A DNA stretch of 64,000 bases from Deltaproteobacteria bacterium (GTDB lineage: Bacteria > Myxococcota > JADLHZ01), in NCBI GenBank assembly GCA_020848545.1, contig JADLHZ010000025.1, positions 1-64,000 of the forward strand, read 5' to 3'. The notes beneath the pieces are model-generated. The model did not search any database. It worked only from the letters and a program-made list of their open reading frames with translations, and was not told the origin of the DNA. Numbering within the stretch: the first letter of the stretch is position 1; the number at the start of each line of letters is the position of its first letter. The translations under genes and the position numbers were made by a program. Positions 1-61,576 of this stretch are shown piece after piece.

Positions 1-46
1 TCGTGGTGTCTTCGCAAACCCACGACAGACGAAGCCGAACTTGTTT

Positions 47-424
47 TCAAGGCATTTCTGCTATCCAACGTAAATATTTTGTTACACTGGAACCGATTAT
101 GAGTGACGGAGTCACGAATAATCGGGGATAGCCGAGCCCTATGCTCTCGCGGCGCTGCCGTAGGTACCACGCGTGCGCGCGGGTGAACGATCCGACGAAT
201 GCGCTCACGGCGCCCGCTTCTGTTTGTTCGACAACGAGATGCCAGTGGTTCGGCATGAAGCAATACGCATGCAACTTCACGGAGTGCCGCCGCTTGGCGT
301 GCAGCAAGAGCTGTTCGGCGACGGCATAGTCATCGTCGCCATCGAAGAGGCGGCGCTTCTCCACCCCTCTGTTGCACACGTGGTACATCTGCGCGCTCAG
401 GATCTGTCTCGGTCGTCTCGGCAT
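47..424 (-). CDS. REP-associated tyrosine transposase (RAYT, Y1_Tnp/IS200-like), probably 3'-truncated
   Basis: Y1-type HUH single-strand DNA transposase of the RAYT group, which mobilises or maintains REP elements. The family start MPRRPRQ and the beta-strand YHVCNRG (residues 14-20) are followed by the metal-binding HUH motif HWH (residues 60-62) in MPNHWHLVV. I chose the ATG at 424 because GGGGAAA lies just upstream and the family N-terminus begins there; the open frame to 544 is a non-conserved extension. After about residue 95 the sequence stops resembling the family. The usual YxxxNPV-type helix with the catalytic tyrosine is not recognisable, although a Tyr sits about 55 residues after the HUH motif. 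At 125 residues it is short, so it is probably a truncated or frameshifted copy. An array of the 17-bp element lies directly upstream of its start. Confidence 0.75.
   Translation of the reverse strand: MPRRPRQILSAQMYHVCNRGVEKRRLFDGDDDYAVAEQLLLHAKRRHSVKLHAYCFMPNHWHLVVEQTEAGAVSAFVGSFTRAHAWYLRQRRESIGLGYPRLFVTPSLIIGSSVTKYLRWIAEMP
93..125. other. Imperfect palindrome (hairpin) inside the RAYT 3' part
   Basis: Eight-bp arms CCGATTAT/ATAATCGG enclose an inner GTGAC/GTCAC stem with a GGA loop; the two stems are separated by GA opposite GA, which would give tandem G-A mismatches. Y1 transposases are known to read imperfect hairpins with mismatches or bulges at element ends, so this may be an element terminus. 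That role is inferred. It coincides with the point where RAYT similarity is lost. Confidence 0.5.
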
Positions 425-9230: not shown

Positions 9231-9321
9231 GAAAAGGGACCGGGGAGCGGAGCCGAAAAGGGACCGGGGAGACTCTCGCGCGGTCGCTCCCCGGTCCCTT
9301 TTCGGGGCGCTTTTCGGGGCG
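9231..9321. repeat. REP-like cluster with a perfect inverted pair (REPIN-like)
   Basis: The 17-mer GAAAAGGGACCGGGGAG occurs at 9231-9247 and 9255-9271, and its exact reverse complement at 9287-9303. The second and third copies form a perfect 17-bp inverted repeat with a 15-nt loop. A 12-bp CTTTTCGGGGCG unit then occurs twice in tandem (9298-9309, 9310-9321). The cluster fills the divergent gap between the TetR and exosortase genes. Confidence 0.85.
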
Positions 9322-9392: not shown

Positions 9393-10805
9393 ATGTGGAG
9401 CGCTGAGCACGCACGCCGGACATCGTTGATCGCGCTGGCGCTGCTGTGGGTCGCGTTGTCCTTTCATGCGCTCCGTTGGCTGCTCGTTCGCCTCGACGAG
9501 CAGGGCGCGCTCGCGACGAGCACTGTGTCGATGATCGCCGCTGGCGCCTTCTTCGTCGCGCACGCGCTGCGCCGGCCCCGCGCTTGGACGCTGCCCTCGC
9601 GCGCGCGTCAGCTCGTGCTGATCGCCGCGACCGCCATCATCGTGCTCCACGAGCGGCTCCTCGCCCTGCAAACGATCGCGTGGATCGCCTTCGTCGCCGG
9701 CGCCTTCGTCATCGTTGCTGCTGGTAGCGAGGGCACTGCGTGGGAGCGCAAGCTAGGGCTCATCGCGACGCTTCTCGTGCTCTCGCTACCGGCGGTCGAG
9801 CACCTCGAGACCTACTTCGGCTTCGCCGCGCGCGCGCTCACCGCCGACGTGGTCGCGGCGGTGCTGCGGAGCGCGGGCGTCAGCGCAGCGAGCGGCCCCG
9901 CGGTGATCGTGCTCGAGAACGGCATCGCCGACGTCGCCGAAGCGTGCAGCGGCATGAAGACATTGTGGACCGGCGCCATCGGTTTCGTCTGGGCGCTCGC
10001 GCTGCAAAAGCGGATCGTGCTCGGCGCGCGAACGTGGTTGCTCTTTGCAGGTACTCTCCTCGCGCTTCTGCTCACCAACGCCGCACGCGTCCTCACGCTG
10101 GTCGCGCTGGACCACGTGCTCGATCTCAAAGAGGTCGCGAAGATCGCGCACACGCCGCTCGGCCTCTTTGCCTTCGTCGTGGTCATCGGCGGCGCGTTCG
10201 TGCTGCTCGGTCGCGCCAAGACGCCCACCATCGAGCCGGCGCCTAGGCTCATGCGTCGCGGTTCGGCCTGGCGCCTCGCCTCACTCGTCGCCTTCGCCTT
10301 CGTCTTGCGCCCCATGCTCGCGCCGCAACCCGCGCACGCGCTGCCGCTCCCGGTCGAGCCGCGGTTCCCCGGCGCCACGCCGCTCGCGCTCGACAGCAAA
10401 GAGAAGGCGCTCTTCACCTCGCACCGCGCGCGCGCCTTCAAGTGGCAGCTCACGCACGAAGGCCGCCTGGCCACGATCGTCGTCGTCGTCAGCGAGTCGT
10501 TCCGCGCCCATCACGCCCCCGAGGTCTGCTCGGCTGCGCACGGGCACCGCATCGATCGTCTGCGCAGCGAGCCCTTCTCTGACGGTCTCACCGTCAAGAC
10601 CTACGCGATCGACAGCGGCGCGCACCGCGGCCTCTACTGGTTCGAGAGCGCCACTGAGCACACCGACTCGCTCTTCTCACGCTCACTCGTCCCGCTGCGC
10701 AGCGAGCGGTGGGCGCTCGTGTCTCTCGTCATCGCCGGCGACGCGTTGCCGTCGGCTGCCCTCGTCGAACGTGTGCGTGCGGTGGTCCGTCCGCTCGTTC
10801 AATGA
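9393..10805 (+). CDS. Exosortase with C-terminal EpsI-like domain
   Basis: Polytopic membrane cysteine protease/transpeptidase of the exosortase (EpsH) family, 470 residues. About eight hydrophobic segments cover residues 10-275. The catalytic triad is visible: Cys185 in EACSGMKTLW, Arg232 in NAARVLTL, His253 in AHTPLG. Residues 295-470 form a periplasmic EpsI/DUF3485-like tail (WQLTHEGRLATIVVVV... CSAAHGH...). Exosortases recognise PEP-CTERM tails, cut them and pass the protein on across the envelope. The next gene, 13 bp on, carries such a tail, so the pair is a dedicated system. Start ATG 9393 lacks a clear ribosome site; the frame upstream runs through the repeat cluster and is unlikely to be coding. 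The exact Xrt subtype is not decided. Confidence 0.88.
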   Translation: MWSAEHARRTSLIALALLWVALSFHALRWLLVRLDEQGALATSTVSMIAAGAFFVAHALRRPRAWTLPSRARQLVLIAATAIIVLHERLLALQTIAWIAFVAGAFVIVAAGSEGTAWERKLGLIATLLVLSLPAVEHLETYFGFAARALTADVVAAVLRSAGVSAASGPAVIVLENGIADVAEACSGMKTLWTGAIGFVWALALQKRIVLGARTWLLFAGTLLALLLTNAARVLTLVALDHVLDLKEVAKIAHTPLGLFAFVVVIGGAFVLLGRAKTPTIEPAPRLMRRGSAWRLASLVAFAFVLRPMLAPQPAHALPLPVEPRFPGATPLALDSKEKALFTSHRARAFKWQLTHEGRLATIVVVVSESFRAHHAPEVCSAAHGHRIDRLRSEPFSDGLTVKTYAIDSGAHRGLYWFESATEHTDSLFSRSLVPLRSERWALVSLVIAGDALPSAALVERVRAVVRPLVQ

Positions 10806-10818
10806 ACAGGAGATCGTC

Positions 10819-13566
10819 ATGGAACAAAGAGCCCTCATCGTTTCCCCTACGCGCCGCTACGTCGGCCTCGCGCTCAGAGGCGGAGCCTACGCCGTCGTCT
10901 TCGGCTGGAGCCTGCTCTTCTTGATGCTCGCCTACTGCTTGGCGACGCCGGTGCTCTTGATCCAAACCTTCACGAGCGCCGCCGACGCCGAAGTCGCCGG
11001 TGACTTCTTGCTGGCGCTCGGGCTCTCGGTGGTGGTCGCGTCGAGCTCGCTCTTGCTCCTGCGCCGCGGCGTCCGCAGCTCGCCGCGCAAGCTGCTCGCG
11101 TTCTTCTACGGCTTCGAAGCGCCGATGATCGTGCTCGTCTTGCTGCGCCTCTTCCTCGTCCGCGAGATCACCGCGGGCGCTGCCTTCGTGCTCGGCTGCA
11201 TCGTCCTCGGCTGCTTCAGCGCGGCGTGGAGCGTGTTCCGTCCCTACGCGCAGTCGAAGGCCGGCGCGCACGCGCAGCTCGCGATCGCCGCGGTCGCGCT
11301 CGTGTCGGCGTTGAGCCTCGCGGCCTACTACGCGCTCTATTTGCCGCCAGCCGCCGCCGCGACGCTCGACGCGATCTTCAGCGCGAGCACGTGGACGCGT
11401 CTCTGGCACCAGATCGTGTGGAGCCGCGGTTTTGCCATCTTGTGGAGTGTGACCGGCCTGTTCTTCGTCTTGATCTCGGGATCGCTCTTCCTCGGCGCGC
11501 CGCTCGGTGTCGTCGTTGCGCACGTTCGCCACTTTCGCGATCAAACGCGCTTTCACCGCCTGCGCTTCGCGTCGCCTGCGCTCACCGCCGCGATCGTGGT
11601 CGCGAGTGTGGCACTCACGGTCGCGCTGTGGGCCGCCGCCGGCACGCAGCGGAGCCGCGACGCCTTCAGCCGGATCGAAGCGCACCTGAAAGCGCCGGCG
11701 CCCGCCGAGCTCGAGCGCCTCTACCGCAAAGAAGCCACCCTGCGCGCCGCGCTGCTCGACGCGTACCTGGCGCCGTACCGCTACCTCGGGGCGCGTGGTG
11801 AGACGAACCACTTGCAGCACCTGTATAAGGACACGTGGTTCGCCGGTCCGATCGCCGACGCGGCACAGGACGCGCACGACTTCATCCTGCGCCCCTTCCT
11901 TTATGACGGCGATTCGCTCCGCGGCGATCAAGAACGTGCCGCGGCGCTCTACGCCACGCTCTTCGACGCGCCGATCCAGCGCGCCGAGCGCGAGAAGATC
12001 GATCACGCGTTCGCGTCGACCTATGAACGCCTGCTCGAAAAAGCCGCGTCGAGCCTCGTCGACATCGACGCCAAGCGCGTGCGCCTCGAACGTCAGGACG
12101 TGAGCGTGCGCGAAGTGGGCGACGCCTCCGAGGTGACGATCCACGACGTGTACAAGAACGTGACGAACGCGCCGCAGGAGATTCTCTACTACTTCGAGCT
12201 GCCTGAAGACGCGGTCGTCACCGGGCTTTGGCTCGGGCACAACGACAACCGCGACGAAGCGTTCGCGCATCGCGTGGCGCCGCGGGGTGCAGCGCAGAAA
12301 GTATACAAGGCCGAGGTGCGCCGCCGCGTCGATCCGGCGCTCGTCGAGCAAGTGGGGCCGCGCCAGTATAGGCTGCGCGCCTATCCGGTGCCGACCGATA
12401 AGCCGCTGCACGTGTGGATGAGCTACGCTGCCGAGCCCGACGGCGCCTTGATTCCACGCCCGCGCTTGCTCGAGCGGCGCAACGCGTTCTTCGACGGAAG
12501 CACGCAGTATTCGAAGAACGGCACCGCGGTCGAAGGGGTGGGCGACAAGGAGTGGGTGCGCGTGGAGCTAAAGGCGACGGCGTCGGCGGTGCGCGGCAGC
12601 GTGTCGCTCGGCGGCCGCACGATCGAGCGCACGCCCCGCGATCCGTGTAGGTGGGACTGCAAGCTCTCCGCAGGGAAGGGCGAGCGCGTCGCCATCGTGG
12701 TCGATCGATCGTTCAGCATGCCGAGCTTCAGCGCAGAGAACGAGCTCGGTTGGGCGAAGCGCGGCCTCTCTGGCTACGCGATCGACCTCGTGCTCGCGGC
12801 GGCCGAAGGCAGCGGGCGCGCGCGCATCGTGCAACGGCTCGACGACGACGCTGATCTTCGCGCGCTCGGCTCGAGCACCTTCGCCGAGCTGCTCGACGGA
12901 GATCTCGGCGGTTACGACGCGGTCTTCGTGCTGACCGACGACGACGGCTACGATCGCGCCGCAGACTTCAACCCGCGCGCGTGGCCGAAGGCGCTGTGGA
13001 TCGTGCACAGCGGCGCCGTTCCGCGCGCGTACCCCGACGCGATCGCCGACGCGCTCTCGCGCCGAGGCAGCGGCATCGCCGGCACCTTGAGCGACGCCGT
13101 CGCGCGTTGGCAGAGCTACGAGGACCCCGAGGTCCTCACCGTGAGCGGCAAGGAAGCCTGGAAGGGCACCGGCAAGATCGACGTGAAGGCCTTGAGCAGC
13201 GCCGCCGCCGCGCCGATCGATCAGATCGCGGCCAAGATGTGGATCGCGGCGCGCGCCGAACGCCTTGCTGAGCGCGACACGCTGCACGCGCTCGCGCAAG
13301 CGACGAACATCGTGACGCCGCTTTCGTCGATGATCGTCCTCGTCGACGAACGCCAACACAAAGCCTTGGACGACGCGAGCAAAGACGGCAGCAAGTTCGA
13401 TCGGGCGGTCGAGGACGGCAAGGAGCAAGCGCCGGCACCGGGCGATCCGTTCAACTTGAGCGCCACGCCCGAGCCCGAGGAGTGGATGCTGCTCTTCGCG
13501 GTGTTGGCGCTGATCGCCTACATGCGATCACCATGGCGCGATCGGGGGCGTACGCTATCCTCGTAG
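10819..13566 (+). CDS. Membrane VIT/VWA protein with PEP-CTERM-like sorting tail (dedicated exosortase target)
   Basis: A 915-residue protein. Residues 15-275 hold about seven membrane helices; residues 415-540 form a VIT (vault/inter-alpha-trypsin) domain (DVSVREVGDASEVTIHDVYKN, ILYYFELPEDAVVTGLWL, RQYRLRAYPVP); residues 625-770 a von Willebrand A-like domain with the MIDAS DRSFS and a later LTDDDG; the C-terminus has PEPEEW (from residue 884), a hydrophobic helix and an Arg-rich end. This is the layout of the MSEP-CTERM or XrtN-linked VIT proteins known to sit beside one exosortase. AGGAG precedes ATG 10819. It probably shows its VIT/VWA part outside the inner membrane. Confidence 0.85.
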   Translation: MEQRALIVSPTRRYVGLALRGGAYAVVFGWSLLFLMLAYCLATPVLLIQTFTSAADAEVAGDFLLALGLSVVVASSSLLLLRRGVRSSPRKLLAFFYGFEAPMIVLVLLRLFLVREITAGAAFVLGCIVLGCFSAAWSVFRPYAQSKAGAHAQLAIAAVALVSALSLAAYYALYLPPAAAATLDAIFSASTWTRLWHQIVWSRGFAILWSVTGLFFVLISGSLFLGAPLGVVVAHVRHFRDQTRFHRLRFASPALTAAIVVASVALTVALWAAAGTQRSRDAFSRIEAHLKAPAPAELERLYRKEATLRAALLDAYLAPYRYLGARGETNHLQHLYKDTWFAGPIADAAQDAHDFILRPFLYDGDSLRGDQERAAALYATLFDAPIQRAEREKIDHAFASTYERLLEKAASSLVDIDAKRVRLERQDVSVREVGDASEVTIHDVYKNVTNAPQEILYYFELPEDAVVTGLWLGHNDNRDEAFAHRVAPRGAAQKVYKAEVRRRVDPALVEQVGPRQYRLRAYPVPTDKPLHVWMSYAAEPDGALIPRPRLLERRNAFFDGSTQYSKNGTAVEGVGDKEWVRVELKATASAVRGSVSLGGRTIERTPRDPCRWDCKLSAGKGERVAIVVDRSFSMPSFSAENELGWAKRGLSGYAIDLVLAAAEGSGRARIVQRLDDDADLRALGSSTFAELLDGDLGGYDAVFVLTDDDGYDRAADFNPRAWPKALWIVHSGAVPRAYPDAIADALSRRGSGIAGTLSDAVARWQSYEDPEVLTVSGKEAWKGTGKIDVKALSSAAAAPIDQIAAKMWIAARAERLAERDTLHALAQATNIVTPLSSMIVLVDERQHKALDDASKDGSKFDRAVEDGKEQAPAPGDPFNLSATPEPEEWMLLFAVLALIAYMRSPWRDRGRTLSS

Positions 13567-22841: not shown

Positions 22842-23110
22842 GCGTCCTCGAGAACATCGAGGAGAAGCTCCGCCGTGCCCTCGAGCCGACCGAGCTCGCG
22901 ATCAGGAACGACAGTCAGAAGCACGCGGGCCACGCCGGGCAAACGAACGCGCACTCCCACTTGGCGTTGCGCATCGTCAGCGCGAAGTTCGCGGGGTTGC
23001 CGCTCGTCAAGCGCCACAAGCTCGTCTACGCGGTGTTGGCCGAAGAGCTGAAGCAGCAAGTCCACGCGCTCGAGATCGACGCCCGCGCACCGGACGAAGC
23101 AAAGACATAG
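22838..23110 (+). CDS. bolA: BolA family protein
   Basis: A 90-residue BolA/YrbA-type protein: HAGHAGQTNAHSHLALRIVSAKFAGLPLVKRHKLVYAVL with the RHxxVY helix-turn signature and C-terminal VHALEIDARAP. BolA proteins partner with monothiol glutaredoxins in iron-sulfur cluster handling, and some bind DNA. His residues of the ligand loop (AGHAG, HSHL) are present. ATG 22838 overlaps the roadblock stop (ATGA), third in a coupled set. No glutaredoxin is adjacent. Confidence 0.88.
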   Translation: MSVLENIEEKLRRALEPTELAIRNDSQKHAGHAGQTNAHSHLALRIVSAKFAGLPLVKRHKLVYAVLAEELKQQVHALEIDARAPDEAKT

Positions 23111-23111
23111 C

Positions 23112-23177
23112 CACAGGAGAAGGGGAGAAAGGGAGGCGAACCGAATCGTCTTTCTCCCGTTCTCCCTTTCTCCTGTG
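23112..23177. repeat. Long near-perfect inverted repeat after bolA
   Basis: Two 24-bp arms (23112-23135 and 23154-23177, beginning CACAGGAGAA and ending TTCTCCTGTG) pair with two mismatches around an 18-nt loop. The arms are purine-rich against pyrimidine-rich. It starts right after the BolA stop and could serve as a transcription terminator or RNA-stabilising hairpin; there is no T-run. Confidence 0.8.
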
Positions 23178-23211
23178 ACTATCCCCGCTTTCAGGTCCGA
23201 AAAGGGAGAAC

Positions 23212-23435: not shown

Positions 23436-25382
23436 ATGAACAAGCCGCTGTCGTTGTCTTTCGCATCCGAAGCGCTGAGCGAGCAGGATCTGACGACGCT
23501 GGCGAAGCTGCGCAAGCAAGCGGCGGCCGACATCATCACCTCGACCACGATCTCGACTTGCGGCCACCCGGGCGGCTCGCTCTCGTGCTTGGAGGCGCTG
23601 GTGATGCTCTACGCGACGACGAACACGAACCCGCAGGCGCCGCTCGATCCGAAGCGCGATCGCATCATCGTCTCGAACGGCCACATCACGCCCGGCGTCT
23701 ACGCGGTGCTCGCGGCGTTCGGCTTCGACGATCGCGACAGCTTCCTTGCGCACTTCCGCCACGCCGGCTCGCGCTTCGGCGGCCATGTCGAGAACCACGT
23801 GCCTGGTGTCGAGTGGAACACCGGCAACTTGGGCCAGGGGCTCAGCGCAGGGACGGCGTCGGCGCTCGCGGCGAAGCTCGCGGGCAACGACAGCAAGGCC
23901 TACGTGCTCATGGGCGACGGCGAGCACCAGAAGGGTCAGATCTCGGAGGCGCGCCGCTTCGCGGTGAAGTTCAAGCTGAGCAATCTCTGCGCGCTCGTCG
24001 ATCTCAATCGTCTGCAAATCGGCGGCAAGACCGACGACGTGATGCCGACGCCGATCGCCGAGGAGTATCGCGCCGCTGGGTGGAACGTCATCGAGCTCGA
24101 CGGCCACGACTTCAAGGCCTTGTATGGCGCGCTCAGAAAGTTCTCGCTCGGCCACGTGGCGCAGCCGGATCGTCCGACCGTGCTCATCCTCGACACGGTG
24201 ATGGGGAAGAGCGTTTCGTTCATGGAGAACGAGCACGTCTATCACGGCACGACGCCGACCAAGGCGCTCGCGCAAAAAGCGTTCGTGGAGCTCGGCGGCG
24301 AAGATCGCATCGACGCGCTCGAGGCGATGCGCAAGGCGAAGTCCGGCGCCGAAGCCGCGCCGCCGAAGCGCCCGCACTTTTCGGGGCCCGCCCTGACGGT
24401 GCCGCCGGCGAAGACGTACACCGACAAGACCGACAACCGCAGCGCGTACGGTAACGTGATGAAGGATCTCGCCGTCGCCAACAATCCGGCGGGCCAAGTG
24501 CCGAAGGTGCTCGCGATCTCGTGCGATCTCGAGGGCAGCGTGAAGCTGAGTGACTTCAAGAAAGCCTCACCGCACGCGTTCATCGAAGCCGGAATTCAAG
24601 AGCACCACGCCGCCGCCTTCGCGGGTCGCTTGTCGAACGAAGGCTTCACCGTGTTCTGGTCGACCTTCGGCGCGTTCGCGGGCTGCGAGGCGTACAATCA
24701 AGAGCGCCTGAGCGACTACAACGACGCGACGGTGAAGGTGGTCGCCACGCACTGCGGTCTCGACGTCGGTGAAGACGGGCCGACGCATCAGGCGATCGAC
24801 TACATCAGCCTCTTTTCGAACTTCTTCCACTTCGAGATCTTCGTTCCCTGCGATCCGAACCAGACCGATCGCATCATTCGCTACGTCGCGCAGTCGAAGA
24901 AGCCGGCGTTCGTGGCGATGGGCCGCAGCAAGATCGACATCGTCAAGAAGCCGGACGGCACGCCGCACTGGAGCGACGACAAGCCGTTCGTTCCGGGTGG
25001 CTACGACACGCTCCGTGAAGGCGCCGATGGATCGATCATCGTGACCGGCACGCTGACCAGCGAGGCCGTCAAAGCGCACGACAAGATCTTGGCCGAGTCG
25101 GGCAAGCGCTACGCCGTCTACGCCGTGGGATCATTGAAACCGTTCCCGAACGCCGTCGTGCGCGAGGCGGCGAAGACCGGCAAGATCATCACGCTCGAAG
25201 ATCATCACAGAGACACCGGTCTTGGCCGCATCGTGGCGACGGTGATGGCGGACGAAGGCGTGCATGCGAAGCTCTTGCGCCTGGGCGTCGCCCATTATTC
25301 TTCGTCGGGCGCCCCCGCCGATCTCTTCCGCGACGCTGGCCTCGACGCGGCGGGAGTGACAAAGGCCGCGTTGGCGTTCTGA
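23436..25382 (+). CDS. tkt: Transketolase
   Basis: Thiamine diphosphate enzyme exchanging two-carbon ketol units in the pentose phosphate pathway; 648 residues. TPP domain: CGHPGGSLSCLEALV (about residues 42-56), GHITPGVYAVLA, and the GDGEHQKGQISEARRFAVKFKLSNL...DLN motif. Pyrimidine domain: EAGIQEHHAAAFAGRL with the catalytic-Glu region, GLDVGEDGPTHQAID; C-terminal regulatory domain about 520-648. It is slightly shorter than E. coli TktA and more like the two-part transketolases in texture. ATG 23436 follows GGAGG. It stands as a single gene. Confidence 0.93.
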   Translation: MNKPLSLSFASEALSEQDLTTLAKLRKQAAADIITSTTISTCGHPGGSLSCLEALVMLYATTNTNPQAPLDPKRDRIIVSNGHITPGVYAVLAAFGFDDRDSFLAHFRHAGSRFGGHVENHVPGVEWNTGNLGQGLSAGTASALAAKLAGNDSKAYVLMGDGEHQKGQISEARRFAVKFKLSNLCALVDLNRLQIGGKTDDVMPTPIAEEYRAAGWNVIELDGHDFKALYGALRKFSLGHVAQPDRPTVLILDTVMGKSVSFMENEHVYHGTTPTKALAQKAFVELGGEDRIDALEAMRKAKSGAEAAPPKRPHFSGPALTVPPAKTYTDKTDNRSAYGNVMKDLAVANNPAGQVPKVLAISCDLEGSVKLSDFKKASPHAFIEAGIQEHHAAAFAGRLSNEGFTVFWSTFGAFAGCEAYNQERLSDYNDATVKVVATHCGLDVGEDGPTHQAIDYISLFSNFFHFEIFVPCDPNQTDRIIRYVAQSKKPAFVAMGRSKIDIVKKPDGTPHWSDDKPFVPGGYDTLREGADGSIIVTGTLTSEAVKAHDKILAESGKRYAVYAVGSLKPFPNAVVREAAKTGKIITLEDHHRDTGLGRIVATVMADEGVHAKLLRLGVAHYSSSGAPADLFRDAGLDAAGVTKAALAF

Positions 25383-33521: not shown

Positions 33522-33536
33522 AATACAAACGCCACC

Positions 33537-33603
33537 GAAAAGGGACCGGGGAGGGATACCGAAAAGGGACCGGGGAGGAATTCGACGAAAAGGGACCGGG
33601 GAG
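33537..33603. repeat. REP-like cluster (three copies of the 17-bp element)
   Basis: GAAAAGGGACCGGGGAG at 33561-33577 and 33587-33603, with another full copy at 33537-33553 (periods 24 and 26 bp). The cluster lies in the divergent gap between the MerR gene and the FadL-like gene and is read through by the long open frame of the latter. Confidence 0.85.
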
Positions 33604-33644
33604 GAATTCGTTTCTTTCGGTCGGCAGGTCGGGTACGGACCCGC

Positions 33645-55120: not shown

Positions 55121-55814
55121 GCGCGAGCCGGCCGCGACAGGCGTTTCTGTTCGCGAGGTTGATGCAGAGCGCGGTCTCGGGACGCGAGAGGTACTTGCAG
55201 TCGGCCAGCGTCTCGCCGGACGGCGTCTTCTCGAGGACGTAACGGCCGGCTTTGACCGTCGTGCCGCCGGCGGCCGGAAAATCGAACACGCTCAGGCGGC
55301 CTTGCTGCACGCAGCAGTTGCTGTCGCAGAGCGCCGAGTAGATGAGGTGGCCCGGGTCGTCGCTGACGACGATGGCGCTCTGCCAACCGCGGGCGCCCAT
55401 CATCAGCGAGGCGTAGTAGAGGTTCTCGTCGGTGTGCGTCGCCTGCGCTTCGAGCGTCACGTCGGTGGCGGCGATGCCGCGGGCGACCAGCAGATCGCGC
55501 AGCGCCTCCGCTTCGACGAAGGCGTTGTGAACGGCGGCGCCGCTCGTGATGAAGCGCTTGCCGTAGCGGCCGAGCGACACGGCGAGGTCGGCGCGGCGCG
55601 TTTGGCACTCGGAGGGCGTGCCGTCTTCGTTCGACGGACAACCGAGCACGATGATCACGTCGGCTGCCGCGAGCGCGCACGCGGGTGGCGGCAGCGCGGC
55701 GCCGTAGGGATCGATCGGAAAGACTTTGCCGAGCTGATCGGCGAGCGCCGGACCGCAGGGCGCCGGCGCGCATGCGGAGACGGCCATCAGCGTCGAGGCG
55801 ATCAGCGCGCGCAA
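55110..55814 (-). CDS. YdcF/DUF218-family lipoprotein
   Basis: A 234-residue lipoprotein (signal MRALIASTLMAVSAC, lipid Cys 15) with the DUF218 (ElyC/SanA/YdcF) fold: VIIVLGCPSNEDG strand and loop, RRADLAVSLGRYGKRFITSG, EAEALRDLLVARGIAATDVTLEAQATHTDENLYYAS and IVVSDDPGH. Family members act near the envelope, some in peptidoglycan or antigen metabolism; role unknown here. Overlaps both neighbours (11 bp with the PLD gene convergently, 13 bp with the propeller-like gene). Confidence 0.8.
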   Translation of the reverse strand: MRALIASTLMAVSACAPAPCGPALADQLGKVFPIDPYGAALPPPACALAAADVIIVLGCPSNEDGTPSECQTRRADLAVSLGRYGKRFITSGAAVHNAFVEAEALRDLLVARGIAATDVTLEAQATHTDENLYYASLMMGARGWQSAIVVSDDPGHLIYSALCDSNCCVQQGRLSVFDFPAAGGTTVKAGRYVLEKTPSGETLADCKYLSRPETALCINLANRNACRGRLALSR

Positions 55815-56830
55815 ATTTCACTCGTCGCGCGCAGCAGGCGGTAGCGGCGATCCTTGGCGAAGCCGACGTAGATCATCAGCCAGTCTTTCTCGCGGCGGAG
55901 CACCGCCGGATCGCGCGCGCTGTAGGCGTCGTGTCCGGCGGGATCGAGATCGATCGCGATGCCTTGCTTCTGCCACGCGATGCCGTCCGCCGACTTGGCG
56001 AAGCCGATGCGGTACGGGCCCGGGTTCGTCTTGCGCGTGTCGTAGGCCCCGTACCAGGCGAGGTGCTCGCCGTTTTCGATCACGGCGGCGGTCTGCGCGA
56101 CGGCCTTGTTGTCGAAGTCGCTAGGCTTGCCGACGGTGATCACGGCTGCGGCTGGAGCACGATCGATCGCCTGCCCGATGATGGCGCGGCCGATCGCGTA
56201 CGCTTGGCCGTTGAAGCCTGTGTAATAGAGGACGAGGCCGGCGGGCGTGTTGACGACGGCCGGGTAGAGGACAGCCATCGCGTCGAAGCTGCCCGCGGCG
56301 CCGGCGGTGAAGACGCGCTCGGCGATGTTCGTGAAGTGCACGCCGTCGTCACTCTCGGCGTAGTCGAAGCTGCCGCTGCCGTACCACAGGCGGAACTTTC
56401 CGCCGTCGACGAGGACGGCAGGGTACGCGACGATCTCGGCTTCGCGCAGCCCGGTGAGCGGCTCGGGCGCGGTGAAGGTGACGCCGTCTTTCGAGGAGGC
56501 GTGTTGCAGGCGGTAGGTGAGGCCGACTTTGCTGGCGAACCAGAGGTGGATCGTGCCGGCTTTGAAGGCGAGGGCGGGGGAGAGGAAGCCGTCGTTTTGG
56601 GCCGTGGAGGACGGAGGAGAAAGAGCGGCGCCGTGTTTTTTCCAGGTCCACGGCGTGCACGCGGGGGGATCGGCCACGGCGACGGCGACGTCAACGTCAA
56701 CGTCAACGGGCTCTGAGTCGACCGGCTGCGTCGCCGTAGGCGTTGACGTCGCCGTCGCCGGTCTTTCGGTGACGATCTCGGAGCCACCGCACGCCGCTAC
56801 CAGCACCAAGTAAATGCCGACCCGTTTCAC
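55802..56830 (-). CDS. Lipoprotein with five-bladed glycosidase-like propeller
   Basis: A 342-residue lipoprotein (signal ending LVLVAACGG). After a linker of Thr-Ala/Pro and Val-Asp/Val-Ala dipeptide repeats (about residues 22-55), it has repeated blades like LSPALAFKAGTIHLWFASKVG, YPAVLVDGGKFRLWYGSGSFDYAESDDGVHF, YPAVVNTPAGLVLYYTGFNG and RDPAVLRREKDWLMIYVGFAK, the pattern of GH43/GH32/GH130-like five-bladed propellers. Whether catalytic acids are present is not clear. GTG 56830 is taken because the lipoprotein signal starts there. Confidence 0.7.
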   Translation of the reverse strand: MKRVGIYLVLVAACGGSEIVTERPATATSTPTATQPVDSEPVDVDVDVAVAVADPPACTPWTWKKHGAALSPPSSTAQNDGFLSPALAFKAGTIHLWFASKVGLTYRLQHASSKDGVTFTAPEPLTGLREAEIVAYPAVLVDGGKFRLWYGSGSFDYAESDDGVHFTNIAERVFTAGAAGSFDAMAVLYPAVVNTPAGLVLYYTGFNGQAYAIGRAIIGQAIDRAPAAAVITVGKPSDFDNKAVAQTAAVIENGEHLAWYGAYDTRKTNPGPYRIGFAKSADGIAWQKQGIAIDLDPAGHDAYSARDPAVLRREKDWLMIYVGFAKDRRYRLLRATSEICAR

Positions 56831-56922
56831 GCGCGGGCCCTTATGTGACCCCCAGCTCCCCCGTCCAGCCAAATGTGCGACTTCCATGCACATTCCCCAG
56901 CCACGTCCTATACTCACCCGCG

Positions 56923-58699: not shown

Positions 58700-59446
58700 T
58701 CACGCCCGCAGCCACCGCTCCACCCGCTGCAGCAAGCGTTCGTTCCCCGCCGGCACATCCGCCAACGCCTGATCGATCGTCCCCACGAACTTCACGGTAC
58801 CGCCGTCGAGCCACAGTAAGTGCGTCGCCCACGACTCCAGGCGATCGAAGACGTGCGTCGCGTACAAGATCGTCGTTCCGATGCTCTCCGCGTCGGCGCG
58901 CAGAAACGCCAGCAGATCGAGGCGCCCGATGACGTCGAGATCGCTCGTGGCTTCGTCGAGCAAGAGCACTCGTTTCGGCTTCAAGAGCCCGAGCATCAGC
59001 TGCACGCGCCGGCGCTGGCCGTCGGAGACGCGGTGCATGTGCCACCCCTTGTCGATCGACAAGACCGACACGAGCACGTCGCGCCGCGCCGGATCGCACT
59101 CGCTCTTCTCCAAGATCTCGGTGACCGTCACATCCGTATCGAACGGAAAGCGCCCGCCGATGAACGCCACGTCGTGCACGAGCGCGACGTCGTCGAACGC
59201 CGGCCGCCCGAGGATCTCGACGGCGCCGGTCTTCGTCATGTGGCGGCCGGCCAAGATGCCGAGCAGCGTGCTCTTGCCGGCGCCGTTCTTACCGATCAGC
59301 AAGCAGCGCGCGCCGCGCTCCAACGAGAACGAGAGCCCCGAGAGCGCCTTCGAAGTCGGCGCCAAAGCCGGCTGAAAGCGGCTCTTCGTGAGCCCAGGCG
59401 GAAACACATAGTCGAGCCCGTCGACTCTGATCGCAGCGTCGCTCAC
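58700..59446 (-). CDS. Caf16/ABCI-like soluble ABC ATPase
   Basis: A 248-residue ABC ATPase with no membrane domain. Walker A LIGKNGAGKST (about residue 55), signature VSDGQRRRVQLMLGLLKP in place of LSGGQ, Walker B LLLDEATSDLDVIGR, and a late ATHVFDRLESWATHLLWLDGG. The SDGQRRRVQ signature and the THxFDxLExWxTH tail are the hallmark of eukaryotic Caf16p/ABCI20-type proteins, whose bacterial role is unknown. GTG 59446 overlaps the stop of the preceding gene (GTGA). No permease nearby. Confidence 0.8.
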   Translation of the reverse strand: MSDAAIRVDGLDYVFPPGLTKSRFQPALAPTSKALSGLSFSLERGARCLLIGKNGAGKSTLLGILAGRHMTKTGAVEILGRPAFDDVALVHDVAFIGGRFPFDTDVTVTEILEKSECDPARRDVLVSVLSIDKGWHMHRVSDGQRRRVQLMLGLLKPKRVLLLDEATSDLDVIGRLDLLAFLRADAESIGTTILYATHVFDRLESWATHLLWLDGGTVKFVGTIDQALADVPAGNERLLQRVERWLRA

Positions 59447-60441
59447 TGCGTGAACGACGCGCCGCTTTGGATCCACACGCGCATGCGGGTCAAAAGGTCC
59501 TTGTTGTTGACGAAGAAGTTCGTGTTGTTGCGCGGCATCTGATCGCAGCCGCTGCCCTTGTTGTTGCGATCGAGATCGATCCGCCGCCACAAGACCGAGT
59601 TGTCGAGATCGCCGCCGGTGACGAAGACGGCGCCCGCGTTCGGCGCGTTGCACGTGCCGGCCATGTCGGTCGGGGTGCGCGTCGTCAGCTCGGTTTCCAT
59701 CGCAGCGGCCGTCGTGTGGTTCAAGCGCAGATCGCGCTCGGGCGCGTTGCCGCCGTGGCAGCCGCCGCAGTTGTCGTTCAAGATCGGCTTGATGTCGCGC
59801 GTGTACTGCGGAAGGTCGACGGTGAAGCTGGTGTTGCGCACAGGGAGCGCGTTGCCGGCTTCGTCGCTCACGACGAGCGCGACCGTGTAGGTGCCGGCAG
59901 CGTCGGGCGCACGCCACTTCGCCGCCACGTCGCTCGGCGCGCTCTCGAGGGCGCCGTTCCCTGCCGGGCTCGGCAAGCTCCACGCGAACTTCGGCCCGCA
60001 GCCCGGCCCGACCGCTTCCGGAGTGAGCGTGATCAGATCGCCCACGATGTACGTGCTCGTCTTCGACAAGATGATGCTCTTCAGCTCGAGCGCCGCGTCG
60101 CTGTTGACGCCGTCGAGGCTCGTCGTCGCGGCGCTTTGGTTGCCGTCGGCATCCTTGATGCTGACGCGGATCTCGAAGGTCGCGTCTTTGCATAGGCTCG
60201 GGATCGACACTTGCGTCTCTTGCAGGAGGGCGCTCGTGAACGCGAGCTTCGGAGTCGTCGGGGTCGTCTGCTCCCACTTGTAGGTGACGTCGCCGACTTG
60301 GCCTTTGACGTTCGCCTTCAATGTAATGCGTTCACCTTCGCCGGCGCTCGGTGCGGAGGCCGTGATGGTCACTGTCAGTTTTTGCGCCTCAGGCGGCGCG
60401 CAGGCGGCGAGCAGGAGGAGCCCCGGAAAAACTTTATGCAT
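59443..60441 (-). CDS. Lipoprotein with Ig-like and CxxCH (cytochrome-like) domains
   Basis: A 332-residue lipoprotein (signal MHKVFPGLLLLAACAP, lipid Cys about 14). Residues 20-210 look like two immunoglobulin/PKD-type domains (LTVTITASAPSAGEGERITLKANVKGQVGDVTYKWEQ; TYTVALVVSDEAGNALPVR). Then a haem-like motif NDNCGGCHGGNAPERDLRL (about residue 222), the pattern of planctomycete/myxobacterial cytochrome tails, followed by LDNSVLWRRIDLDRNNKGSGCDQMP. ATG 60441. Stop overlaps the ABC ATPase. It is the first gene past the inverted minisatellite. Confidence 0.75.
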   Translation of the reverse strand: MHKVFPGLLLLAACAPPEAQKLTVTITASAPSAGEGERITLKANVKGQVGDVTYKWEQTTPTTPKLAFTSALLQETQVSIPSLCKDATFEIRVSIKDADGNQSAATTSLDGVNSDAALELKSIILSKTSTYIVGDLITLTPEAVGPGCGPKFAWSLPSPAGNGALESAPSDVAAKWRAPDAAGTYTVALVVSDEAGNALPVRNTSFTVDLPQYTRDIKPILNDNCGGCHGGNAPERDLRLNHTTAAAMETELTTRTPTDMAGTCNAPNAGAVFVTGGDLDNSVLWRRIDLDRNNKGSGCDQMPRNNTNFFVNNKDLLTRMRVWIQSGASFTQ

Positions 60442-60519
60442 GCGCCTGAGTTTACCACCGGCCCGTCGCCCTGGCCCGAAACCCTCGCCGCGCTCGCGAG
60501 CGTGGCCCGCACCTCGCTG

Positions 60520-60574
60520 CCCCTGACCTCTCGACCCCTGACTTCTCGACCCCTGACTTCTCAACCCCTGACCC
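60520..60574. repeat. 15-bp tandem repeat (about 3.7 copies)
   Basis: Unit CCCCTGACTTCTCGA at 60520-60534 (one change), 60535-60549, 60550-60564 (one change) and a partial to 60574. It leads straight into the C-rich 12-bp array. A palindrome CGCTCGCGAGCG occurs just before at 60491-60502 and again at 60626-60637. Confidence 0.85.
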
Positions 60575-60577
60575 AAA

Positions 60578-60611
60578 CCCTGGCCCAAACCCTGGCCCAA
60601 GCCCCTGGCCC
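60578..60611. repeat. CCCTGGCCC array (three units, 12-bp period)
   Basis: Three copies of CCCTGGCCC at 60578, 60590 and 60603 separated by AAA or similar. They are the reverse complement of the GGGCCAGGG units that follow at 60738-60856, so the two arrays can pair as a hairpin arm of interrupted complementarity. Confidence 0.85.
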
Positions 60612-60737
60612 CAAAACCTTGGCCGCGCTCGCGAGCGTGAGCTTGGCCCTGGCCCTGGACTCTCAGATCCTTCCGCACGCACCGGGGGCGGGACAGGCCA
60701 AGCTCAAGGTCAGGAGCGCGAGCGCGGCCAGGGGCTT

Positions 60738-60856
60738 GGGCCAGGGTTTGGGGCCAGGGTTTGGGCCAGGGTTTGGGCCAGGGTTTTGGGCCAGGGTTTT
60801 GGGCCAGGGTTTTGGGCCAGGGTCTTGGGCCAAGGGTTTGGGGCCAGGGTTTTGGG
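60738..60856. repeat. GGGCCAGGG minisatellite (nine units, 12-13-bp period)
   Basis: Nine units of GGGCCAGGG separated by TTT, TTTT, TTTG or TCTT, one unit with an A change (GGGCCAAGG). The plus strand fits the G-quadruplex pattern G3-N3-G3-N3-G3-N3-G3 many times over. It starts about 10 bp past the response regulator stop and, with the C-rich array, forms an inverted, AT-separated, strongly GC-skewed block not seen elsewhere in the window. Confidence 0.9.
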
Positions 60857-60865
60857 CGGGACGGA

Positions 60866-61576
60866 CTACTCCGGGCGCGACTTGAACATGTAGCCCCTGC
60901 CGCGCAGCGTGACGAAGTGCCGCGGCGCCTCGGGCTCGGGCTCGAAGAGCTTGCGCAGGCGCATCACGAAGTTGTCGACCGTGCGGTCGGTCGGGAAGCT
61001 GTCCATGCCCCAGACTTCTTCCAAGATGTCCGCGCGCGAGAGAAGCTCGTTGTCGCTGCGGACGAACATGCGAAAGAGGCGCATCTCTTTGTCTGACAGC
61101 GTCAGCGTGCCTTCGTTGGTCTGCGACTCGCCGGTGTCCAAGCGCACCCAGTTCTTGCCGAGCTCGTAGCGCTCGCGCGCGTTCGCCGGTTTCTTCGCAT
61201 GCCCACGCCGTAACAGCGCCTTCACCCGCGCCACGAGCTCGACGACGTCGAAGGGCTTCGTCAGATAATCGTCGGCGCCGTTCTCGAAGCCGCGCACCTT
61301 GGCGTCGGTCTCGCCGCGCGCCGTCAGCATCATGATCGGCAAGCTGAGCCCGCGCGCGCGCGCCGCCTCGACGAGATCGAAGCCGTCCCCGTCGGGCAGC
61401 ATCACGTCGACGATCGCGAGATCGTAGCTGTGGCCCGTCCACCTTTGCGTCGCTTGCGCCGCGCAGTCGCAGGCGTCGACGGCGTAGCCCGCGTGGCGGA
61501 GGTTGGCGGAAACGACGTCTCGCACGAGCGGCTCGTCTTCGACGAAGAGGATGCGTGCGCTGCCCTGTGGTTTCAT
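60866..61576 (-). CDS. OmpR/PhoB-family response regulator
   Basis: A 236-residue two-component regulator: receiver domain with acidic pocket ED near residue 13, phosphoacceptor Asp57 (AIVDVMLPDGDGF), LTAR switch and Lys near 106 (DDYLTKPF); C-terminal winged helix with TLTLSDKEMRLFRMFVRSDNELLSR and RTVDNFVMRLRKLFEPEPE, RGRGYMF. ATG 61576 overlaps the kinase stop (ATGA). Its output is unknown; the next stretch downstream is the minisatellite. Confidence 0.92.
   Translation of the reverse strand: MKPQGSARILFVEDEPLVRDVVSANLRHAGYAVDACDCAAQATQRWTGHSYDLAIVDVMLPDGDGFDLVEAARARGLSLPIMMLTARGETDAKVRGFENGADDYLTKPFDVVELVARVKALLRRGHAKKPANARERYELGKNWVRLDTGESQTNEGTLTLSDKEMRLFRMFVRSDNELLSRADILEEVWGMDSFPTDRTVDNFVMRLRKLFEPEPEAPRHFVTLRGRGYMFKSRPE

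Follow-up and report, generated by a model that had tools for sequence, protein, structure and literature searches.

Intervening sequences (IVS) in 23S rRNA, such as that of Coxiella burnetii, are inverted-repeat hairpins whose loop contains an S23p/IVP open reading frame (ORF). In Coxiella, this ORF is undergoing reductive evolution and lies downstream of heptamer repeats (GACAGAT), whose number varies between strains (PMC4990558). Dispersed arrays of 7-bp units that are intergenic, G-rich, often inverted or hairpin-forming and situated near stop codons have been described as heptameric short tandemly repeated repetitive (STRR) sequences in cyanobacteria, a heptamer hairpin being exemplified by P6b of the Nostoc tRNA-Leu intron (PMC3488679), and as GGGAATC repeats in Xanthomonas, with 70 cases of inverted heptamer pairs in Xcc (PMC4692102); the passages of both papers available to us mention no IVP gene between the arrays. 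The present analysis concerns a 424-bp element at positions 60442–60865 of a 64,000-nucleotide stretch (henceforth the window) from a Deltaproteobacteria bacterium (GenBank assembly GCA_020848545.1, contig JADLHZ010000025.1, positions 1 to 64,000, forward strand). This element most likely belongs, as a gene-less copy, to a family of dispersed palindromes, itself part of a broader class of mobile hairpins whose coding form would consist of inverted arrays of 6–7-bp repeats enclosing one IVP/S23 gene. Unlike the IVS in 23S rRNA, the elements considered here lie between protein genes, and the target copy, located between two such genes, has no ORF. Unlike the heptamer arrays, it is built from a 6-bp-based unit with a conserved core.

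An inverted-repeat search and RNA folding identified the spacer at 60442–60865 as a single imperfect palindrome rather than two unrelated minisatellites. The predicted fold has an energy of -277.4 kcal/mol (z -10.3) and was matched in stability by none of 100 dinucleotide shuffles; each strand gives a single hairpin, of -277 kcal/mol on one and -279 kcal/mol on the other, with z near -10 and no shuffle of equal stability. The left and right sides, whose arrays are C-rich and G-rich, respectively, on the plus strand, are complementary over most of their length, including one ungapped 49-nt arm pair (90%), a relationship that had escaped the initial annotation of this DNA. As in IVS/IVP hairpins, inverted-repeat arms form a long stem, and the arms are inverted tandem repeats of the 6–7-bp type, with the conserved unit running in 6-bp steps and the arms composed of 12–15-bp units. 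Tandem arrays were called with Tandem Repeats Finder (TRF), and the unit model R1 is described below. The element comprises the following features:

60442–60865, no strand: whole element, a giant imperfect palindrome filling the gap between two co-directional genes (fold, inverted repeats)
60463–60528, minus strand: outer, third copy of the conserved unit, a weak match containing CGCTCGCGAGCG at 60491 (model R1, 31.8 bits, E 1.1e-6)
60520–60573, no strand: left-arm 15-bp tandem array, CCCCTGACCTCTCGA in 3.6 copies (TRF score 87)
60562–60624, no strand: left-arm 12-bp tandem array, CAAACCCTGGCC in 5.0 copies (TRF; minus strand compatible with a G-quadruplex at 60565–60612)
60597–60660, minus strand: left core unit, among the best conserved of the family (R1, 60.9 bits, E 8.5e-16)
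60661–60695, no strand: hairpin loop region between the core-unit matches, without a long ORF in this copy (fold)
60696–60752, plus strand: right core unit, partly degenerate (R1, 39.6 bits, E 3.7e-9)
60726–60857, no strand: right-arm 13-bp tandem array, GGCCAGGGTTTTG in 10.2 copies (TRF score 206; plus-strand G3N1-7 run at 60731–60860)

The initial annotation, which had reported inverted G-rich and C-rich tandem arrays at this place, was right about their presence, as the TRF arrays lie far beyond chance; it had also correctly placed a 15-bp tandem repeat on the left side and a pair of palindromes, namely CGCTCGCGAGCG at 60491 and 60626. Its unit counts have to be revised. Instead of nine units on the right side, exact GGGCCAGGG occurs eight times in the right array (60738–60849), a ninth copy in the window being located at 23831, and instead of three facing units, exact CCCTGGCCC occurs five times (60469, 60578, 60590, 60603 and 60647). 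The plus strand is compatible with a G-quadruplex, as had been proposed, through its long run at 60731–60860, and so is the minus strand through its shorter run at 60565–60612, such that four G3+ runs with loops of 1–7 are present on both strands. A coding reading of the arrays was considered and is unlikely, although a single frame stays open across a portion of them, since the spacing of the array units alternates between 12 and 13 and thereby breaks the reading frame.

The family was delimited by pattern and model searches, with a unit model (A1, R1) built from 30 units, and by reading about 1 Mb of genomic DNA. With at most one mismatch, the core word GCTCGCGAGCGCGGCCA was found at 45 places in the 8.0-Mb genome, compared with 0 for a reversed-pattern control; 12 of these places are single matches resembling coding chance, and the remainder form about 20 palindromes. 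Each family element is intergenic and has two inverted units on either side of a short loop, and about 20 elements were matched by the unit model. The conserved unit, GGCCAGGGCCAAGCTCAGGCTCGCGAGCGCGGCCAAGGCTTTCGGTCAGGG, is about 50 bp long and proceeds in 6-bp steps (GGCCAG, GGCCAA, GCTCAG, GCTCGC, GAGCGC, GGCCAA). Beyond it, every copy has a private tandem unit, for example GGTCAGGGTTTGG, GGCCAGGTGATTTG, CCTGAA or CCCTGACCAACAA, so the minisatellites are copy-specific local expansions of the arms of a shared palindrome. Since unit sequence and copy number differ among paralogous copies, the arrays are labile. With the same core at about 20 intergenic sites, the earlier view of the locus as a rare, isolated minisatellite is not supported, and because the neighbours of the copies are unrelated between sites, the adjacent two-component system, to which the locus had been tied, is incidental. 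One family copy spans a contig break, with contigs C26 and C64 both starting inside it; apparently isolated minisatellites can be arms of mobile palindromes, and they break assemblies. Two members are cut by insertion sequences (IS). The IS end at the start of the window (1–135) is the same as that of the IS interrupting the family core on L061 (9940–10123), and the L069 copy (9407–9593) has another IS within it; insertion sequences may target the palindromes of this family.

A sister family, recognised by weaker matches to the unit model (E about 1e-6 to 1e-3), shares 22 of 24 core bases with the main family. Its copy at C56:12098–12669 carries an IVP/S23 ORF (12332–12574) between the arms, which matches PF05635 (54.6 bits) and the four-helix bundle protein XCC0516 (PDB 2gsc; E 5e-8). 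In further sister copies (C44, C68, C86, C90, C108, C112 and C139), the start of the IVP ORF, its end or nothing is left, a loss comparable to the reduction of the Coxiella ORF, and C139:51295–51420, like the target, is a pure hairpin. Many sister copies are situated at contig ends beside IS-like termini (CTAGCAGGCTGTTGAAAAA), the interior of this high-copy element being collapsed in the draft assembly. Miniature inverted-repeat transposable elements (MITEs) offer a parallel in that they, too, are small, dispersed, palindromic and non-coding derivatives of a coding form. The main family, unlike MITEs, has no defined, fixed terminal inverted repeat or target duplication; the sister family, by contrast, lies within IS-like ends.

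The association of IVP genes with inverted short tandem arrays extends to other loci and genomes. Further IVP genes of the host genome adjoin hexamer arrays, (GGCGAT)n on L134 and L135 and (GACGGC)n on L131. In the other genomes of the phylum, inverted arms (score of at least 25, within 500 bp) were found at 27 of 54 IVP loci and at 2 of 108 displaced positions (P = 1e-13); these controls were taken in the same DNA and are often coding, so that some of the difference may be owed to a noncoding setting. When response-regulator loci served for comparison, arms were present at 29 of 59 phylum IVP loci versus 1 of 37 (P = 3e-7). A periodicity of 6–7 bp, which is a more specific sign than the arms alone, was detected at 16 of 54 IVP loci versus 2 of 108 displaced controls. 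The array units vary by locus (TTCCTGG, CCGGCTA, GTCGGG, GGGGAC, GTGGAC, CAGCCG). On plasmids, mostly cyanobacterial, 13 of 16 IVP genes have inverted arms, compared with 3 of 64 displaced positions (P = 9e-10); here, the arms are located directly before the IVP start and after its stop and mostly have a period of 7. Many IVP matches are paired head-to-head or tail-to-tail less than 500 bp apart (G004, G024, G036, G051, G054, G062), as though the gene belonged to a longer palindrome or one unit sat inside another. The window itself contains a hexamer hairpin (GACGGC/GACGTC) at 56677–56760, inside a lipoprotein-like ORF (55802–56917, minus strand) and translated as VDVDVDVAVAVA; its hexamers also flank the IVP gene on L131.

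Near-identical cyanobacterial plasmids with or without the block 'array + IVP + inverted array' differ by a precise insertion of 420–500 bp that contains the arrays and the IVP gene and no other gene. Two Nostoc plasmids have an operon in common (L257 and L259): one contains IVP and arms of the CAGGAGT type at a junction that is empty in its counterpart, which contains IVP and arms of the GGGAAAA type at the next junction, empty in the first. In both cases, the insertion coincides with the stop codon of the preceding gene. Picosynechococcus PCC 7003 is filled between cas10 and a cmr3-family gene and PCC 7002 is empty (L246/L261). Trichormus variabilis is filled and Nostoc linckia empty at a site with flanks of 98–99% identity (L248/L262), where the insert measures 420 bp with about 8 bp repeated at its ends, and a shortened remnant is found at the Trichormus site (L265). 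Nostoc edaphicum is likewise filled and Calothrix NIES-4105 empty (L252/L264). L254/L263 was set aside as not being a clean pair, with 273 bp of other DNA at the empty site. The direction of change was probably gain rather than loss, because the empty sites are small and clean. IVP units also occur inside cyanobacterial CRISPR-Cas operons (L246, L251, L254), between the genes named above in Picosynechococcus PCC 7003 and at cas6/cas4 in Anabaena sp. 90 and Pseudanabaena galeata.

In the most likely reading, such units enter operons as discrete blocks placed where a gene ends, and the outer arms of the family's unit expand locally into private tandem arrays. The long RNA hairpin may make such units low-cost passengers of the host transcript, by analogy with the 23S rRNA inserts that are removed by RNase III; under this reading, the element would fold and be processed as RNA in the cell, and the family of the target would move, or have moved, in the same way, possibly with the help of IVP. 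A reverse-transcription route for this mobility was considered and discarded, as the genome contains no RVT_1 (reverse transcriptase) match. Several points weigh against the reading of the target as a gene-less mobile hairpin. All filled/empty pairs stem from cyanobacterial plasmids and none from the main family, in which neither the target nor any copy read contains an ORF. The link between main and sister family depends on a short, repetitive core, and the IS-like ends CTAGCAGGCTGTTGAAAAA of the sister elements raise the possibility that some of these elements were moved by the transposase of an IS. Half of the phylum IVP loci lack clear inverted arms. In addition, the two units of a copy are no more alike than units across copies (42.0 vs 42.5 identities out of 55, P = 0.79), and outer arms pair no better with their own partner than with those of other copies (P = 0.25), so pairing is not kept by compensatory change; the target is an exception, its outer arms being each other's best partners (rank 1 of 13). 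Conservation thus concerns the unit as such, with no sign of selection on pairing or of arm-to-arm conversion.

More tentatively, inverted 6–7-bp arrays with IVP/S23 may represent a widespread mobile element that lacks a recognised transposase or recombinase and enters gene ends, and many dispersed hexamer and heptamer repeats, the target included, would then be its gene-less descendants. The S23/IVP family is large and its fold has been solved, and no function is known for it, to our knowledge, beyond rRNA inserts; the short tandem repeat arrays scattered through many bacterial genomes have no accepted origin. An IVP gene between inverted arrays, coming and going with them as one block, ties the two together: for IVP this offers a candidate role, as part of a mobile hairpin, and for the arrays a candidate origin, both of which can be tested in cyanobacteria. 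No paper joining IVP/S23 with inverted tandem arrays was found in a literature search that excluded preprints and most subscription journals and does not establish priority.

Two other explanations appear unlikely, to a similar degree. In the first, the family would be of the REPIN/BIME type (bacterial interspersed mosaic elements), that is, composed of inverted doublets of units resembling repetitive extragenic palindromes (REPs), moved in trans by a Y1 transposase (REP-associated tyrosine transposase, RAYT). The architecture agrees well, as the unit has an internal palindrome and occurs almost only as inverted doublets outside genes, forming, as REPINs and BIMEs do, a hairpin with a variable loop (PMC3116915); the genome has four Y1_Tnp matches, and the IS copies interrupting the members on L061 and L069 also fit. 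REPs are, however, defined by their proximity to a RAYT, and compensatory changes are common in REPINs (PMC3116915), whereas the unit lies near none of the four Y1 loci and the arm comparisons given above revealed no such changes. The arms are, moreover, much longer than those of REPINs and carry tandem arrays, and the sister family bears a gene. The Y1 locus in the window (143–394) adjoins a different repeat, AAAAGGGACCGGGGA. This RAYT-like match, on the minus strand at the contig edge, is accompanied by four copies of CGAAAAGGGACCGGGGAG, the positions listed with it being 543–634, 9253–9305, 23107–23182 and 33534–33610.

The second explanation, equally doubtful, is an element kept by the host at gene 3' ends as a bidirectional terminator, mRNA-stabilising hairpin or supercoiling site, with arrays arising by neutral slippage. 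Family copies do favour gene 3' ends, and several of them start no more than about 20 bp from a stop codon. For 15 copies, both neighbouring genes were called; the gap is convergent in 6 cases, co-directional in 8 and divergent in at most 1. Relative to gaps of 100 bp or more in that DNA, convergent gaps are enriched (background 12%, P = 0.007) and divergent ones depleted (background 34%, P = 0.017), in a small sample with approximate gene calls from a simple ORF scorer. The same bias is expected of an insertion that is tolerated only outside promoters and genes. The very stable fold suits a host function, but the spacer contains no U-tract terminator, and size, unit and arm composition vary freely among copies. 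Nor was the core found enriched in other genomes of the phylum: with two mismatches, it did not exceed background (reversed-pattern counts) in 194 of them, and the exact core gave one match in the named genome collection, in a Spirochaetaceae metagenome-assembled genome.

Least probable is that the element acts as a G-quadruplex-forming regulatory repeat comparable to those described in Xanthomonas and Nostoc (GGGAATC/GGGGATT heptamers), which are likewise intergenic, near stop codons and often in inverted pairs (PMC4692102). Both strands of the target carry G3N1-7 runs, but 6 of 18 family copies have no such motif, several arms consist of CCTGAACC, whose G runs are only two long, and an inverted partner arm would compete for pairing. 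With motifs in only 12 of 18 copies and a hairpin far below shuffled energies in most (weak in three), G-quadruplex motifs are secondary and not the conserved feature of the family.

The target occupies exactly the gap from the stop of a response-regulator gene to the start of a lipoprotein gene on the same strand, as the initial annotation had stated. The flanking genes are:

60866–61576, minus strand: upstream gene, OmpR-type response regulator (Response_reg + Trans_reg_C), ending right at the element
59443–60441, minus strand: downstream gene, PKD/Ig-like lipoprotein, starting right after the element (Pfam matches, ORF)

Within 60442–60865, no terminator-like site (a G+C-rich stem followed by a U run) and no sigma-70 promoter-like site was found, and an Rfam search returned chance microRNA matches only. 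The lipoprotein frame is open upstream to a GTG across half of the element (60678–59443, minus strand), and an automatic gene caller may therefore extend the protein into the repeats.
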